Both the position numbers and the translations under genes were made by a program. 22,612 nucleotides of DNA from IMG/VR virus record IMGVR_UViG_3300030406_000181, positions 1-22,612 of that record. One strand, 5' to 3'. The notes under the pieces were generated by a model that did not search any database, was not told the DNA's origin, and saw nothing but the letters and a program-made list of their open reading frames with translations. Below are positions 182 to 19,977 of the stretch, in pieces. The DNA comes from a virus. Position 1 is the stretch's first letter; each line of letters begins with the position of its first letter.

Positions 182-1888
182 CTACGTCCAAAGGATCGCT
201 TTAGAACCACCATTACTACGTTTATAAAAGCTATCAGTAAACTTTGTTAACTCTTGTTGTAGTAGTTCTTGTTTCCTATCAGATATGTTTCTATCAGCAT
301 CAGCAGCCATCTGTTCAGTCCAGTAGGCAACAGCTATAGCTAAAGCATCTAGTCTATCATCCTTTAACAGACTACCACGTTCTCTTGTTATTCGTGATAG
401 TTGATACATTAATTGATAGGAAGCTTGTTTCTCAGTGGGGTAAGCCATAGCTGAGTTATAGTCGTTTGTTATAACCCTAGGGTCTATGATAAGTTTATGA
501 CTGTTAAGTACAGGTTCCAGTGTATCAATGATACGTAGTTCTTTTTGTTTACTGTGTCGTACTTCTTCCAGTGTTACCGGGTACGTAGTTCTAAACAAAG
601 GTTTAATCAGTTCCGAAAAGATACCGTCACCAAAGTTACTCTCTACTACGACTTTGTTAACCTTGTTACGTTTAGCGATGTCAACGAGTTCCTTTAGTGT
701 TTGTTCTCCGTATCCACCCTTTAGACCACCCGCTTCAGGAACGTACAGATAACCGTTAAGCATCTTTACCACAGCGTACCCAGTTTCATCAACACCACGA
801 CCAGACGGGTCAATACTCATAACACTACCACTGTACGGTATGTTTTCTCCTATGACGTTACTTGGGCGTTTGTATCTGTCACCGTTAAACCCTACATTAG
901 GCAGTGTCCTGTCAGCTTTCTCAGGGTCACTTGACCACAATATCTTTTCAGGACAAGTATCAACGTCTACGTCGTACAGTACCAGATCGTTAATCTTCAA
1001 TGGGAATCTGTCTTGGTCTGATAGTCGTGGGTTGAGTAAGAACTGCAGGGAATAACCACTACGACCGTAACTTAGCTTACGTTCGTCAAGGTCCATATCA
1101 GTGAACCGCAGTGGTTCTGTAGTCTTACCTATGTTATCCTCAGTGGTGTTATCCGATATAAAGGGTGCTAGAGCGTCTCCATAGATGTTATTGACGGTAG
1201 AGGGGTCAGGATATTCAGAAGGCATAATAAACGCCTTGTAGCCCCGTTCTTGCAGCTTCTGATAGATACTCTCTTCTGTTTGAGGAGTACCAAGGAATAC
1301 TATCTTGGAGGTGTCCAGTGGTTTAATGATAGCATCTGTTTCTTTTACGGCTTCCGATAGCTTGTCTCTCATGCCTTGTGTAGCGGAGTTGTTAACGACT
1401 TCTATATCGTCCAACACTATCAGATCAGCACGACTACCCGTTAACTGTGATGTTATACCAAGACTCTTAACGGACGGTGCGTGTGACGCAGGAGCAGGAC
1501 CAACATCAAAGGATACCTTACTAAACCGTTGGTCTTCCGTTGGTTTTAGTTGGTGCAACACTGGTATATCATTAATAAGACGCTGACAAAATGTACTAAA
1601 TTCATCAGCACGAACCTTAGATGCACTTACAACAAGTATGTTTTTAGACGGGTCCATCAGCAGTTCCCACACTACATAAGCACTTGTTATCCAAGACTTT
1701 CCACAACCACGGAACGCCATGACGATACTACGCTTCGGACCGTGTTGCAGGTGGTCACAAATAGCGTACTGTAGGGGTGTTGGATCAGGCAGGTTTAAGT
1801 GCCTCCATACCAAACAGACAAAGTTCTTAAAGTTCTTTAACTGTGGTGGTACGTTAAGTTCCGGCTGCTTGTTGTTGCTCTTCCTCAT
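182..1888 (-). CDS. terminase large subunit (T7 gp19-like DNA packaging ATPase/nuclease)
   Basis: This is the motor ATPase and headful nuclease that pumps the DNA concatemer through the portal and cuts it. The Walker A motif AFRGCGKSW is near residues 59-67 and Walker B LIVLDDIE near 158. The RNase H-like nuclease acids lie in DPSGRGVDETGY (about 362), VVVESNFGDG (about 414) and DDRLDALA (about 512). Long stretches match T7 gp19, including SVKSLGITSQLTGSRAD and FLGTPQTE. I place the start at the ATG at 1888 (568 aa). A frame starting at 1912 would need a TTG codon and add eight residues that T7 gp19 lacks. T7 gp19 has about 13 residues before its matching QLK, close to the 14 seen here. The gene overlaps the end of the small terminase gene by 35 bases. 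It is the last clear gene of the late block. Confidence 0.97.
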   Translation of the reverse strand: MRKSNNKQPELNVPPQLKNFKNFVCLVWRHLNLPDPTPLQYAICDHLQHGPKRSIVMAFRGCGKSWITSAYVVWELLMDPSKNILVVSASKVRADEFSTFCQRLINDIPVLHQLKPTEDQRFSKVSFDVGPAPASHAPSVKSLGITSQLTGSRADLIVLDDIEVVNNSATQGMRDKLSEAVKETDAIIKPLDTSKIVFLGTPQTEESIYQKLQERGYKAFIMPSEYPDPSTVNNIYGDALAPFISDNTTEDNIGKTTEPLRFTDMDLDERKLSYGRSGYSLQFLLNPRLSDQDRFPLKINDLVLYDVDVDTCPEKILWSSDPEKADRTLPNVGFNGDRYKRPSNVIGENIPYSGSVMSIDPSGRGVDETGYAVVKMLNGYLYVPEAGGLKGGYGEQTLKELVDIAKRNKVNKVVVESNFGDGIFSELIKPLFRTTYPVTLEEVRHSKQKELRIIDTLEPVLNSHKLIIDPRVITNDYNSAMAYPTEKQASYQLMYQLSRITRERGSLLKDDRLDALAIAVAYWTEQMAADADRNISDRKQELLQQELTKFTDSFYKRSNGGSKAILWT

Positions 1889-2105
1889 TCTCGGTGAAAG
1901 GTAAAGCTTCAAATTGTTTAGCTAGGTCATTAACAGGAGTACCAGTACGATTGTCAACCGTTATGTTGTTGTCTTTCAACCACTTACCCACAGCGTTCAT
2001 CAGTGCTGGGTTGTACTCCTCCATAGCATTCATGTACTCAACGGCATTCATGCACACCTTTGTGTAACTGTCTGCCAGTTTAGCTCCTTCTACGTGATCT
2101 TTCAT
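1854..2105 (-). CDS. terminase small subunit (T7 gp18-like)
   Basis: This 83-residue acidic protein lies directly before large terminase, where T7 has gene 18 (89 aa). Small terminase subunits recognise phage DNA and control the large-subunit motor. A central helix-rich segment, YNPALMNAVGKWLKDNNI, resembles SPQLYNAINKLLDRHKFQIG of T7 gp18 in spacing and character. A Glu/Gln-rich tail follows. I see no strong Shine-Dalgarno sequence before the ATG. The gene overlaps large terminase by 35 bases, which suggests coupled translation. The call rests mainly on size, position and this weak similarity. Confidence 0.8.
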   Translation of the reverse strand: MKDHVEGAKLADSYTKVCMNAVEYMNAMEEYNPALMNAVGKWLKDNNITVDNRTGTPVNDLAKQFEALPFTENEEEQQQAAGT

Positions 2106-2137: not shown

Positions 2138-2374
2138 TCAGCACTTCCAACGACGTAACGCCAAAGCTTTACGGGTAGGTCTACCTTTACTGTCTTTCAT
2201 TGGTCCCTTTACTCCTGACATACGAGCACAGAAGGAACGCTTACGAGGACCACCACCGGGTTGAGGAGCTTTCAAGTTAGACCCAGTAGCACGATTGTAT
2301 TTGCGTCTACCTTTTGCAGTGAGTCCTCCTTTACGGGACTTCTCACCTCTGCCTATGGATAAGGATACACTCAC
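2138..2374 (-). CDS. small basic protein, DUF6321-like
   Basis: This 78-residue, strongly basic protein has a GTG start. Its blocks are SRKGGLTAKGRRKYN, GSNLKAPQP, RKRSFCARMSGVKGPMKD and KGRPTRKALALRRWKC. From memory these match a small-protein family of marine phages and giant viruses (DUF6321). The biochemical role is not known to me. High Arg/Lys content and two conserved Cys (in SFCARM and at the C-terminus) suggest nucleic-acid contact or a compact fold, but that is inference. The GTG start overlaps the stop of the upstream gene by four bases (GTGA), a typical coupling junction. The conserved core starts at SRKGG, so the first dozen residues are less certain. Confidence 0.85.
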   Translation of the reverse strand: MSVSLSIGRGEKSRKGGLTAKGRRKYNRATGSNLKAPQPGGGPRKRSFCARMSGVKGPMKDSKGRPTRKALALRRWKC

Positions 2375-2502
2375 TTCTTCTTTTTGATAGCCATACCCTT
2401 ACGACGTTTTAACGTTATGATGTCAGCTTGGGTAATCTTTTTCTTGTCACCAGCAACGGCAGCAAGCTTCTTTTGTTTAGGACTATATTTTCCGTATGGC
2501 AT
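2371..2502 (-). CDS. 43-residue basic protein (MPYGKYSPKQKK family)
   Basis: This short gene runs from the ATG at 2500-2502 to a TGA at 2371-2373. The protein starts MPYGKYSPKQKKLAAVAGDK, continues KKITQADIITLKRRKGM and ends AIKKKK. The start MPYGKYSPKQK is one I recall as recurrent in small marine-phage proteins. No function is known to me. Net charge is very high (about 15 Lys/Arg in 43 residues). Its stop overlaps the GTG of the next gene by four bases, and only two bases separate its start from the stop of the 85-residue gene before it. The tight fit supports it as a real member of the operon despite its length. Confidence 0.8.
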   Translation of the reverse strand: MPYGKYSPKQKKLAAVAGDKKKITQADIITLKRRKGMAIKKKK

Positions 2503-2504
2503 AA

Positions 2505-2762
2505 TTATTTCTTTCTCTTAATCTTTAATGATACCCGTGCTGCGGGTGTATTACTAACAAATTGTTTACCTTTCGCACCACCAGCTTTCTTCTTTCTAGC
2601 GGTAGCTGCTCTTTGAGCGGTGGACAGTGAACGTGCTTTAGACATAGGAAGACAACGATCAGGATTCTTTTTATTTTTAGAAGTACCACACTTACCTGCT
2701 ATCTTACCTGAACTACTAATACGTACCCAGTTCTGTGCTCTCCACTTTGCTAACTCACCCAT
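2505..2762 (-). CDS. small basic protein, DUF5872-like
   Basis: This 85-residue basic protein has the motif series WRAQNWVRISSSGKIAGKCG, NKKNPDRCLPMSKARSL and AATARKKKAGGAKG, with a C-terminus of KIKRKK. The W-x-RI-GKIAG-CGT/NPDRCLP-KA pattern matches a family I remember as DUF5872, found in marine phages and large algal viruses. The two cysteines, in GKCGT and DRCLP, fall in the conserved blocks. The C-terminal half is a run of Lys/Arg/Ala and resembles a DNA-binding tail. The biochemical role is unknown. Its ATG lies one base after the stop of the 50-residue gene upstream. Confidence 0.87.
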   Translation of the reverse strand: MGELAKWRAQNWVRISSSGKIAGKCGTSKNKKNPDRCLPMSKARSLSTAQRAATARKKKAGGAKGKQFVSNTPAARVSLKIKRKK

Positions 2763-2763
2763 G

Positions 2764-2916
2764 TTACTTCTTCTTCTTTATTGCAAGCTTCTTGCGTTTC
2801 TTACCGTACGTGGGACTCTTGCAGTACTTAGATGCAGCCATGTTGGCGTATGCACTTGGATACTTATCGAAAGTACGTTTAGCCCACGCTATTCCTTTTG
2901 GACAAATCTTAGCCAC
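2764..2916 (-). CDS. 50-residue basic protein with GTG start (AKICPKGIA family)
   Basis: This short gene reads from a GTG at 2914-2916 to a TAA at 2764-2766. The product begins MAKICPKGIAWAKRTFDKYP, continues SAYANMAASKYCKSPTYG and ends KKRKKLAIKKKK. The AKxCPKGIA-x-AKR-x-F-x-x-YPSAYAN-x-x-ASKYCK pattern is one I recall from small marine-phage proteins, so GTG is preferred over the internal ATG (M27). The reading frame is closed by a TGA just upstream of the GTG. The start overlaps the stop of the preceding gene by eight bases. Two Cys flank the YPSAYAN block. The role is unknown. Confidence 0.82.
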   Translation of the reverse strand: MAKICPKGIAWAKRTFDKYPSAYANMAASKYCKSPTYGKKRKKLAIKKKK

Positions 2917-3163
2917 GTTTCATTAACATCTCCATTAAGCGATCAAGCTTGTTATTGATTTCTTTTACAGTAATTTCCAGTCCACTCATACGGTTCTCAA
3001 CAGCAGTGTCTCGTTCTTTCTGAGCAGCTAACTCCACCTCTATCTTAGTCATCCGTTTATCCCCGACATCCAATCGTTCTAACAACCTCTTGATAATCCA
3101 CCCGATAACTCCCAGTATTACAGCAAGAGCAGTATCTAAGAAGTGTGAAATAGATTCAGTCAT
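2909..3163 (-). CDS. small membrane/coiled-coil protein in the holin or spanin position
   Basis: This 84-residue protein has one hydrophobic segment (about residues 9-26, LDTALAVILGVIGWIIKRLL). A charged heptad-like helix follows to the C-terminus, including VENRMSGLEITVKEINNKLD. It sits between tail fibre and small terminase, where T7 places its class II holin (gp17.5) and Rz-type spanin (gp18.5). One N-terminal membrane span followed by a coiled coil is the layout of an inner-membrane spanin, though 84 residues is short for one. A holin is the alternative. It starts in a TGATG overlap with the tail-fibre stop, so translation is probably coupled. A lysis role is inferred from position and topology only. 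Confidence 0.7.
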   Translation of the reverse strand: MTESISHFLDTALAVILGVIGWIIKRLLERLDVGDKRMTKIEVELAAQKERDTAVENRMSGLEITVKEINNKLDRLMEMLMKRG

Positions 3164-5208
3164 CAGGTATCAGTTACTATTGTTTTAACAGTTCCGTCAG
3201 AGAACTTAATTTTTAAATCTCCATCAGCTGAGTCCACATAAATAGCAGCTTGTCCTGAGAAAGTGCTGGGAGCTGAAACTCCGTCTTTAAGAACTAACAA
3301 TTGTGAATGCACTTCCCCAGCTTCGATACCTGCTTCTCCCACATTATTAGTGCCAGCAGTTTTAAATTTAATATCACCGTTGGTAATAAGATCAGCATCT
3401 TCAGTTATTACTATCGACTTTTCAGCAGCTCCAGAGCCGGGGGTTGCGATGATTCTTAATACATCTGTATCCGCTGGCAATCCATAATTACCTGTAGAAC
3501 CTGTATCGTAAGAATCAATGACAAACCCGTCAGACTCTGTACCAGTTGGCGTAGTGATCCCTGCTTTATTTATGTTTATTTGACCGCCTTCTGTAGAGGA
3601 AGCTGGATCGTATATAACCAAAGAACTTCCCACCGCAGCGTTACTGGCAGTCAAAGCAAAGTTAGCATTAGTCGTAGTTCCTATACCAACAGCGTTGTTA
3701 GCACCGTCTGTTATTATTAAATTACCATTACCTGTACTCTTTACAATGAAGTCTACATCTCCTAAAGAATTGTTAATGATTACAGTCTTTTGTGTGGATG
3801 TATCGTCTACTAAAAATTGATTGTCTGTATCACTTATCTTAGCACTTGTAACAGCGTTGTCAGCTAGTTGATCTTCGCCAACACCTCCGTTATCAATGCT
3901 CAATGTACCACTACCTGTAATAGGTCCACCCGTCAGTCCTGTACCACTATTTACTGAAGTGACTGTACCTGTATTAGCTGTAGCACCTGTTGCAATACCG
4001 TCAAGCTTTGTCTTGTCAGAACTTGTCATTACTCCTGCCAAACTTGTAGTAGCAGCAGCAACGGTAGTATTAGTACCAGTGGACGATTCAATATCTACAG
4101 ATGAAGCAGCAGGAGTGTTACTTAAATTCGTAGCACCTGCACCAGCAGAACCGTTGGAAGCTGCCGTAATTCGTCCGTTCTCATCAACAGTTAAATCAGT
4201 ATTGGTATAAGAACCCGGAGTAACCGTAGTGTTATCCAACTTATCAGCAGTGATAGCATCATCCTCTATCTGAGTTGTGCCGAGCTGTACGCCCGGAGGA
4301 GGTGACCCTGTAGCTAAAGACGTGGTAATGGTTTCGTCTACGTAAGTTTTATTCGTTAGGTCATTTCCACTGGTGGGAGCTTGCGACTGAACAACTTTAC
4401 TAGGACTGGTCATGGTCAGGTTGCCCGACATACTGTCCCCACTCTTGGTTACCTGTAAATCGTCTTGGTCGTCAACATAACCCTTATTGGCTGCGTAGTC
4501 GTCAGCTACGGGAGTAGACAATCCCTGAACGCTGGCTGCACTGAGTATATCATTAGTACCCATATTAAGGTCACCACTCATGGAATCACCACTTGCATCA
4601 ACAAAAGTATTGTCGGTGTACGTCTTATTGGTCAGGTCATTACCTGTGGATGGAGTGGCAGAAGAGGTGACTTTATTGGAACCCATGTCCAGAGCACCCG
4701 TCATCGTATCCCCAGCTACATCAACGTAACGAGTGTCAGCGTATCCTTTGTTAACGGCATCGTCGTCACTGTCAGGATCCGCTAAGTTCTCAAGTTTCAA
4801 TCCATCAGCGTTGTAGTGGTCAGTGTCTCTTTTAGTTAACGCACCACCAGTAGCACCTTCCTCTGCTTCTTCAGCAAGATAACGGTTGTGATTGTATCCG
4901 TTGTCCAGTTCTGTCTCAGTTAGTACTGAACCATTTTCGAAGTCAACAATAGCTACAGTAGCATTGCTATCCCGTAATATCCTTATCTTAGCTAAGTTAG
5001 TAGGAGCAGTTACAAATCTTACAAAGTTAGTAGGGGATGTTTCAACAGTGTAGTCGTCTGTAAGTGTCTTTCGTACCCATCTGTTTGTACCACCTGCTGG
5101 TCCGTCGTTGACCTCTACCGCTACGTGTTCGGTATTAATGTATGGAAAGGAAAAGTTAAAATCTGTTTCCGAGCCGTCGCCCGTGTAGTCTACGTAGGTA
5201 TTAGCCAT
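3163..5208 (-). CDS. tail fibre protein (T7 gp17-like N-terminus)
   Basis: This 681-residue adhesin should form the trimeric side fibres that bind the host surface. Residues 1 to about 150 match the T7 gp17 anchor that docks on the tail (YTGDGSETDFNFSFPYI, LTETELDNGYNHNRYLAEEA). Residues about 150-295 hold repeats of the form GDxMxGxLxM plus NKxYVD, common in phage fibres. Next comes a low-complexity Gly/Thr/Ser shaft (TGTVTSVNSGTGLTGG, about 415-430). The C-terminal part ends in a short beta-rich DGDLKIKFSDGTVKTIV segment. I see no peptidase S74 chaperone. The start has no Shine-Dalgarno sequence but an AT-only leader. The C-terminal half decides host range and is the least family-like part. 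Confidence 0.92.
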   Translation of the reverse strand: MANTYVDYTGDGSETDFNFSFPYINTEHVAVEVNDGPAGGTNRWVRKTLTDDYTVETSPTNFVRFVTAPTNLAKIRILRDSNATVAIVDFENGSVLTETELDNGYNHNRYLAEEAEEGATGGALTKRDTDHYNADGLKLENLADPDSDDDAVNKGYADTRYVDVAGDTMTGALDMGSNKVTSSATPSTGNDLTNKTYTDNTFVDASGDSMSGDLNMGTNDILSAASVQGLSTPVADDYAANKGYVDDQDDLQVTKSGDSMSGNLTMTSPSKVVQSQAPTSGNDLTNKTYVDETITTSLATGSPPPGVQLGTTQIEDDAITADKLDNTTVTPGSYTNTDLTVDENGRITAASNGSAGAGATNLSNTPAASSVDIESSTGTNTTVAAATTSLAGVMTSSDKTKLDGIATGATANTGTVTSVNSGTGLTGGPITGSGTLSIDNGGVGEDQLADNAVTSAKISDTDNQFLVDDTSTQKTVIINNSLGDVDFIVKSTGNGNLIITDGANNAVGIGTTTNANFALTASNAAVGSSLVIYDPASSTEGGQININKAGITTPTGTESDGFVIDSYDTGSTGNYGLPADTDVLRIIATPGSGAAEKSIVITEDADLITNGDIKFKTAGTNNVGEAGIEAGEVHSQLLVLKDGVSAPSTFSGQAAIYVDSADGDLKIKFSDGTVKTIVTDT
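4333..4765 (-). repeat. tail fibre protein repeats (GDxMxGxLxM / NKxYVD units)
   Basis: Imperfect repeats of about 45 codons lie within the tail-fibre gene. Each pairs a GD[ST]M[ST]GxLxM block with an NK[GT]Y[AVT]D block. The GD blocks are AGDTMTGALDM, SGDSMSGDLNM and SGDSMSGNLTM. NK blocks read AVNKGYAD, LTNKTYTD, AANKGYVD and LTNKTYVD. The two LTNKTY units are also close at DNA level. This is a common shaft module of phage fibres, and recombination between units can change fibre length. Confidence 0.8.
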
Positions 5209-19509: not shown

Positions 19510-19513
19510 TCAA
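19485..19513 (-). promoter_or_regulatory. sigma70-type promoter for the major capsid gene
   Basis: On the minus strand a perfect -35 box TTGACA (19508-19513) is followed by exactly 17 bases and a -10 box TTTAAT (19485-19490), one mismatch from TATAAT. Transcription would start near 19478, about 136 bases before the capsid ATG. The -35 box overlaps the stop-codon end of the upstream membrane-protein gene. The TTGAC-A-GTCAA half-palindrome around the -35 box could also be a protein-binding site. Confidence 0.6.
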
Positions 19514-19977
19514 CCTCTTCTGCCAGATGGACCAAAATAGAAACCTAAGATGCAAGGCAGAATTACTGTGCATCCCATAAGGCTGATGTGTCCAGAAGAA
19601 ATAACGATTGGCTTTTGAGCAGCTTGCCACTTGAAGAGTCCAAAGAGGAACTCGTTGTATCCTTCTCCGTCTGCATTGGTGACTGTGAGGATTTCTGCGT
19701 GTGGATATAGGGTGCAGAGGACGATACACGCACAGAGCGTAGACACCCCGATAATAGCAAGACAACGACGAGTATTAGAAACAAACTCAGAAGTACCTGC
19801 TTTAGCAAGCTCAGCTTGGAGTCTAAGAAAATTATCGTTTGCACGAGCTTCTCTCGCCATTTCAATATCGTGCTTTTGCTGACGAGCTTCAAATACGTAC
19901 CCAAAAACACCCTTGAGAATAGCACCCATAGCCGTGCTACCCCCACCCGTAATGAACAACATAAGCAACTCACCCAT
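19510..19977 (-). CDS. membrane protein, three-span holin-like candidate
   Basis: This 155-residue protein has two strong membrane spans, LAIIGVSTLCACIVLCTLYP (about 71-90) and LMGCTVILPCILGFYFGPSG (about 133-152). A weaker glycine-rich N-terminal segment (LLMLFITGGGSTAMGAILKG) may be a third. A charged helix (about 30-65) links the first two. The GGGSTAxGAxxKG start and the GFYFxPSGRR end are features I recall from a recurrent marine-phage protein without proven function. Topology resembles three-span holins of gene-transfer-agent type (GTA_holin_3TM), which is a weak analogy. It starts one base after the stop of the gene upstream, so the two form a unit. A holin role is inference. Confidence 0.75.
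   Translation of the reverse strand: MGELLMLFITGGGSTAMGAILKGVFGYVFEARQQKHDIEMAREARANDNFLRLQAELAKAGTSEFVSNTRRCLAIIGVSTLCACIVLCTLYPHAEILTVTNADGEGYNEFLFGLFKWQAAQKPIVISSGHISLMGCTVILPCILGFYFGPSGRRG

Follow-up and report, generated by a model that had tools for sequence, protein, structure and literature searches.

What do four very short, strongly basic genes do between the lysis and packaging genes of a T7-like phage? Marine phage genes of this kind generally carry no more than the label hypothetical; here four of them, P1 to P4, are linked into one conserved module that is found in ocean phages infecting Prochlorococcus, Synechococcus and SAR11 and is tied to proteins detected in virions. This makes it testable whether T7-like marine heads are filled with dedicated DNA-associated proteins. 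To our knowledge, no such proteins are described for the textbook T7 head beyond its core. The window, meaning the whole stretch of DNA that was analyzed (22,612 nt; positions 1 to 22,612 of IMG/VR record IMGVR_UViG_3300030406_000181), comes from a phage that is T7-like because it encodes TerS (DNA_Packaging_2) and a T7-type TerL downstream of the four genes and a T7-type tail fiber upstream of them.

Gene layout, charge and families of P1-P4

The cassette consists of four short minus-strand genes (positions 2138-2916) between a holin-like gene and the TerS gene (Table 1). The end of the holin-position gene overlaps the start of P1 by 8 nt, P1 and P2 are separated by 1 nt and P2 and P3 by 2 nt, and P3 overlaps P4 in a GTGA at 2371-2374. 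The reading frames, their lengths and junctions, and their richness in Lys and Arg (28-35% of residues across P1-P4) are as the first-pass annotation had described them. No other protein encoded in the window is strongly basic like P1-P4 (pI 10.3-12.0): every other gene product has a net charge of +4 or less, and most are acidic. Median dN/dS values against relatives are 0.03 (P1), 0.13 (P2), 0.06 (P3) and 0.11 (P4), indicating purifying selection and thus genuine, constrained proteins.

Three of the four proteins had also been said to contain conserved Cys pairs, and the pairs are invariant in the alignable homologs of P1 (180/180), P2 (185/185) and P4 (213/213). Cys-free variants drop both residues at once, as in the P1 of DSL-LC04 and in the P2-like and P4 proteins of MEP402, each of which lacks both Cys of its pair. 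The two Cys of each protein therefore appear to work as a pair, probably by an intramolecular disulfide or a shared metal.

Table 1. Positions of the cassette, its neighbors in the window, and features of other phages named in the text (the latter with locus label or phage coordinates)
Feature	Position	Strand	Description
TerL	182..1912	-	T7-type; listed TTG start mechanical
TerS	1854..2105	-	DNA_Packaging_2 (PF11123); directly downstream of cassette
P4	2138..2374	-	78 aa; net +21; DUF6321 (PF19846); three predicted helices; Cys pair C49/C78
P3	2371..2502	-	43 aa; net +13; without Cys; optional, in many cases immediately upstream of P4; family signature YSPKQKKLAAVAG..KIT.AD...LRRKK
P2	2505..2762	-	85 aa; net +22; distant DUF5872 relative; phrog_23735; Cys pair C25/C37; core W..(K/N)WV...CGTSKNKKNPDRCLP, then Lys/Arg-rich tail
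P1	2764..2916	-	50 aa; net +15; GTG start; phrog_27331; Cys pair C5/C32; no Pfam family; family signature CPKGxAWAKRTFDKYPSAYANMAASKYC
Holin-position protein (T7 17.5 position)	2909..3163	-	84 aa; one TM and coiled coil
155-aa membrane protein	19510-19977	-	between capsid and scaffold genes
C75C1 membrane protein	L002:8380-8769		inside or beside cassette
MEP402 gp52	L093:3415-3849		matched by C75C1 membrane protein
C75C1 CDS0044	L002:7963-8151		called in wrong frame over P1
023Pt_psg01 P1 and P2	L257:4001-4348		incomplete in annotation
DSL-LC04 P1	L340:2305-2493		without both Cys
DSL-LC04 P2	L340:2480-2749		missing in annotation
MEP402 P4 and P2-like proteins	L093:3965-4270 and 4451-4687		without both Cys
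GLYANIHAKRKRIKAGSGEKMRKPG family examples	L004:4228-4404; L005:3822-3971; L003:5234-5395		small, basic
S-CREM2 ORF137	108049-109521		4 unique peptides in virions
S-CREM2 ORF160	128342-129235		7 unique peptides in virions
Proteins starting MKTFKQFMSES, MQTFSMFFSED, MKNFSSFLTEA	L006:6219-6539; L097:3302-4015; L360:6609-7469		CTS-like starts
S-SZBM1_195	L100:25378-25641		87 aa; unnamed; adjoins terS

P4 is assigned to DUF6321 with 90.8 bits against a gathering cut-off of 28.5 (positions 2-72 of 72, E 9e-26). The Pfam model of DUF5872 (PF19197) does not match the window P2 at E<=1, whereas the P2 of P-SCSP2 is a DUF5872 protein; the link runs through intermediates, namely P-SCSP2 gene 22 (53 bits) and HTVC027P gp50 (21 bits, below cut-off). 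PHROG 23735 holds the window P2, the HTVC203P P2 and, more weakly, the P-SCSP2 DUF5872 protein. Both DUF6321 and DUF5872 are unnamed domains without function, and DUF5872 has been reported from an algal giant virus as well (PMC12085832). Neither P1 nor P3 belongs to a Pfam family, and P3 also lacks a PHROG or NCBIfam match. The earlier statement that the families are domains of unknown function holds directly for P4, the one protein of the four that is itself a named Pfam domain.

Profile searches of Pfam, NCBIfam and PDB with P1-P3 returned nothing usable, and among the PDB profiles no solved structure is related in sequence to P1, P2 or P4. The AlphaFold models are of modest confidence (P4, pLDDT 74 and pTM 0.38; P2, pLDDT 75 and pTM 0.61), and neither finds a Foldseek match in the PDB at E<=0.001; no DNA-binding fold was recognized in P1-P4 from models of this quality. 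No homology to histones, HU, H-NS, protamines or other nucleoid families was found with Pfam, NCBIfam, PDB profiles or Foldseek, and the histone-like possibility raised in the first-pass annotation is not supported as a kinship. For DNA condensation, the charge of P1-P4 is the one feature that speaks in favor. An EF-hand relationship of P3, considered because its positional counterpart in P-SCSP2 is EF-hand-like, was rejected (E 2.7 to that gene).

Some observations concern the neighbors. As listed, with a mechanical TTG start at 1912, TerL shares 59 nt with TerS; the true TerL start is probably further downstream. The 155-aa membrane protein encoded elsewhere in the window bears a weak likeness (E 1e-4) to the C75C1 membrane protein, which in turn matches MEP402 gp52 (E 4e-7); the three are possibly a holin-like family that travels with the cassette. 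The 84-aa holin-position protein was compared to a similar-looking cassette protein of DSL-LC04, and the match is not significant (E 0.23).

Co-occurrence and genome position of the cassette

Loci were taken from IMG/VR by P4, P2 and P1 independently. In the non-redundant set, with flanks of 1.2 kb, P2 is present in 39/40 of those seeded with P1 and P1 in 34/35 of those seeded with P2. Outside the cyanomyoviruses, both genes are found in 181 loci, P1 alone in one and P2 alone in six, and the median distance from P1 stop to P2 start is 0 nt. A P4-type protein is encoded near P1-P2 in 136 of 151 loci (~90%), as DUF6321 in 112 and as the RARHxC form without DUF6321 in 24, and the remaining 15 may be cut by contig ends. 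The RARHxC form (PHROG 7595) is homologous to P4/DUF6321 (hhalign 95%, E 2.5e-8). An annotated collection of 50,697 phage records has P1 and P2 in one and the same set of eight phages (HTVC027P, HTVC023P, HTVC106P, HTVC203P, 023Pt_psg01, P-SCSP2, C75C1 and DSL-LC04), a few members being recognized from flanking ORFs. P1 also lies upstream in 16 of 18 P2-found loci in genome contigs, all of them metagenome or single-cell assemblies.

P1 and P2 are thus an almost obligate tandem pair, with a P4-type protein near and P3 optional, in a modular conserved cassette. Relatives of three of the four proteins move as a group among unrelated marine phages. Order and membership vary among phages, and DUF6321 is a wider family, present in 531 of the 50,697 records and found alone in 24/40 P4-seeded loci. 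Of the co-occurrence and order expected across marine phages, the P1-P2 tandem with its P4-type companion is borne out; DUF6321 is often single, P3 may be missing and the order changes. The "fixed stoichiometry" read from the junctions is not sustained on these grounds, and overlapping frames do not establish stoichiometry.

Annotations of the cassette contain errors and gaps in C75C1, 023Pt_psg01 and DSL-LC04 (Table 1). Several cyanopodoviruses and pelagiphages encode another small basic family, GLYANIHAKRKRIKAGSGEKMRKPG, next to DUF6321, and in PHROG 11180 the two are fused.

T7-like phages carry the cassette at two sites, ordered scaffold-P4-P1-P2-MCP or fiber-holin-P1-P2-P3-P4-TerS-TerL, and the window is of the second type. 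P-SCSP2 has P1, the EF-hand-like small gene, P2 and P4 between the scaffold and capsid genes, and no obvious DUF6321 gene is seen in the annotation of the P-SSP7 capsid region. The cassette recurs in other pelagiphage lineages; in HTVC106P and HTVC203P the P1-P2 pair follows an M15 peptidase gene as the last part of the late operon, away from the packaging genes. The link is therefore to late genes, mostly but not always packaging genes. It had been proposed that the four proteins act together, late, next to the packaging genes: the P1-P2 tandem, the nearby P4, the fusions described below and the head or packaging link in most lineages agree with this, and the two off-site pelagiphages do not.

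Fused relatives and virion proteins in cyanophages

T4-like cyanophages have DUF6321 as the C-terminal part of a large T4-GC119 protein whose gene lies between terS and terL or close to terL. These proteins (PHROG 727/3477; S-SCSM1 gp029, Syn33_105) combine P2-like, P1-like and DUF6321 segments in one chain with long linkers, and P3 is not seen in them, whereas the window has four separate genes. S-SCSM1 gp029 has its P2-like segment at 64-135, its P1-like segment at about 213-240 and DUF6321 at 445-515. Among 83 chains with a cyanophage P1-like segment, many of them cut by contig ends, 52 also have P2, 60 also have P4 and 39 have all three, and the P2-P1-P4 order is invariant in the fused chains. 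The P4 homology in S-SCSM1 is strong (E 4e-22), and those of P2 and P1 are moderate (E 7e-4 and 2e-3 with profiles built without cyanophage members; P1 hhalign 91%). The P1-like segment of S-CREM2 gp160 reaches E 1.5e-4 with a profile of the same kind. Because the three likenesses occur jointly in one chain, chance resemblance is unlikely.

Related domains occur in other fusions too. Aeromonas phage 2L372X encodes, between its portal and capsid genes, a head maturation protease (Peptidase_S78_2, E 2e-20) with a RARHxC domain attached, which has a match to PHROG 220, "minor head protein and DNA pilot" (E 2e-9). In Melnitz-3 the domain ends a cytidylyltransferase, a class reported from several cyanophage virions (PMC9602691, PMC9146016, PMC10665884).

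The proteome of CsCl-purified S-CREM2 virions lists ORF137 and ORF160 (PMC10665884 Table 3). ORF137 ends in DUF6321 (E 3.5e-10), and ORF160 has a P1-like segment at 252-296 as well as a P2-like one at 140-204, the latter recognized solely by the widened profile (E 4e-4). Relatives of all three Cys-paired families are thus present in purified S-CREM2 particles, although mass spectrometry of such large proteins does not prove internal location or say which domain gave the peptides. S-SCSM1 virions probably carry relatives as well: gp029 has the product name "virion protein", an identification that rests on the record name, and the S-SCSM1 paper detected 45 virion proteins by mass spectrometry (PMC9602691). 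The 165-aa DUF6321 protein S-SZBM1_192 is absent from the detected protein list of S-SZBM1 (PMC9146016). The suggestion that the set goes into the head is partly supported: the cyanophage relatives of three families speak for it and this absence against it. Published virion proteomics were found for no phage with a free-standing P1-P2-P4 set.

P-SCSP1u, which encodes a DUF6321 protein with 100% identity to that of P-SCSP1k, has been solved by cryo-EM, its shell consisting of capsid protein only, with portal, adaptor, nozzle and fiber (PMC10575957). Any DUF6321 copies would therefore be internal and not symmetrically ordered, or absent.

Possible roles of the cassette

The reading that we prefer, at a little under even chances, is that P1-P4 are late-expressed, small, cationic accessory virion proteins that associate with DNA inside the head. 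It builds on the genes themselves, their selection, association and fusions, and the virion detection of cyanophage relatives; presence in T7-like virions, an internal head location and DNA binding are inferred from these. P1-P4 would associate with the phage DNA, the prohead core or the terminase-DNA complex, end up inside the head and help to neutralize and organize the packaged genome, and they may leave with the DNA on infection, like the basic internal proteins of T4. P1 and P2 would be a closely coupled pair working with the P4-type protein, P3 an optional helper, and T4-like cyanophages would have the same P2, P1 and P4 modules joined within larger proteins of the virion, one or two in number.

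Internal proteins IPI, IPII and IPIII of T4 are the nearest comparison, being likewise a group of small basic accessory proteins whose members are optional and differ from phage to phage. P1-P4, at 43-85 aa and net +13 to +22, are small and basic in the manner of T4-type internal proteins. In T4, IPI, IPII and IPIII are each present in about 360 copies (PMC9958956), and lysines of its internal proteins touch DNA phosphates (PMC3012670). No homology was found between them and P1, P2 and P4, which differ in being far more conserved and in having paired Cys. Capsid-targeting (CTS-like) starts occur in the T4 relatives and in some cyanophage chains with these domains, and are not detectable on P1-P4, whose starts (MAKICP, MGELAK, MPYGKY and MSVSLS) do not fit the pattern. 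We know of no T4-type prohead protease in T7-like phages. T7 itself has gp6.7 and gp7.3, small late head/ejection proteins encoded at another gene position than P1-P4.

Two alternatives keep the proteins close to the head. P1-P4 might serve in assembly only, as scaffold, prohead or terminase cofactors that are not kept in the mature T7-like particle; genes beside scaffold, capsid and terminase genes, a P4-superfamily domain on a head maturation protease and the P-SCSP1u structure, for which no ordered density of such a protein is reported (PMC10575957), are in keeping with this, but relatives are detected in CsCl-purified cyanophage virions, and we consider it unlikely. Rather improbable, too, is that P1-P4 are carried in the virion and injected with the DNA to subvert the host or block its defenses, in the way that IPI, IPII and IPIII of T4 block GmrSD nucleases. 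Small basic head proteins with such a role are known, T4 internal proteins being diverse anti-restriction factors (PMC3012670, PMC12373910), the cassette varies in make-up between phages and its relatives are in virions. T4 internal proteins, however, show great diversity and little conservation (PMC9026906, PMC3012670), while P1, P2 and P4 are strongly conserved in phages of Prochlorococcus, SAR11 and others (dN/dS 0.03-0.13), which fits a common physical task better. Conservation across phages of such different hosts favors a physical role over an arms race.

It is very unlikely that the four genes are neighbors by history only, each an unrelated accessory gene. The solitary DUF6321 loci, the optional P3 and the variable order would suit such an origin, but P1 and P2 are paired in three independent samples, a P4-type protein accompanies most of the pairs and all three are fused in cyanophages. 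Some phage-encoded cationic peptides disrupt the outer membrane, and P1-P4 could in principle be lysis helpers of this kind, given that the cassette adjoins the holin gene in the window and lies near the M15 peptidase gene in HTVC106P, HTVC203P and HTVC023P. P1-P4 lack a hydrophobic segment (hydropathy over 19 residues peaks at 0.45 or less), many phages carry the set between scaffold and capsid genes and the fused forms are virion proteins, making lysis the least plausible of these roles.

A broader extension of the preferred reading, which is speculative and distinctly improbable as a whole, is that P1, P2, P4/RARHxC and others such as GLYANIHAKRKRI form an exchangeable set of mini-domains whose common job would be entering and locking inside a DNA-filled head. 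In T7-like phages they would stand free, as protamine-like proteins with paired Cys; in T4-like and other phages they would form tails that target larger virion enzymes and proteases to the head. The Cys pairs would oxidize when the particle reaches oxic seawater.

N-termini were scored with a pattern that we take to be the T4 capsid-targeting sequence, and 5 of 86 large chains carrying these domains have a CTS-like start against 0.16 expected from the rate at all ATGs; in the example MKTFKQYITEA, the fitting residues are at positions 4, 7, 8 and 10. These positions are named as important in the T4 sequence (PMC9026906). The excess at chain starts counts toward the preferred reading, although chains with such starts are a minority. 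Among virion-detected S-CREM2 genes, the excess of CTS-like starts (2/3 vs 13/61) is not significant (p 0.11).

Two further observations concern virion proteins of cyanophages. S-SZBM1_195 has an emPAI of 2.66, third after capsid and portal (PMC9146016), and is a good candidate for a head decoration protein. Other cyanophage proteins, some encoded next to the fused chain and one the virion cytidylyltransferase, have CTS-like starts (Table 1); two of them belong to S-CREM2, and both are in the S-CREM2 virion list.
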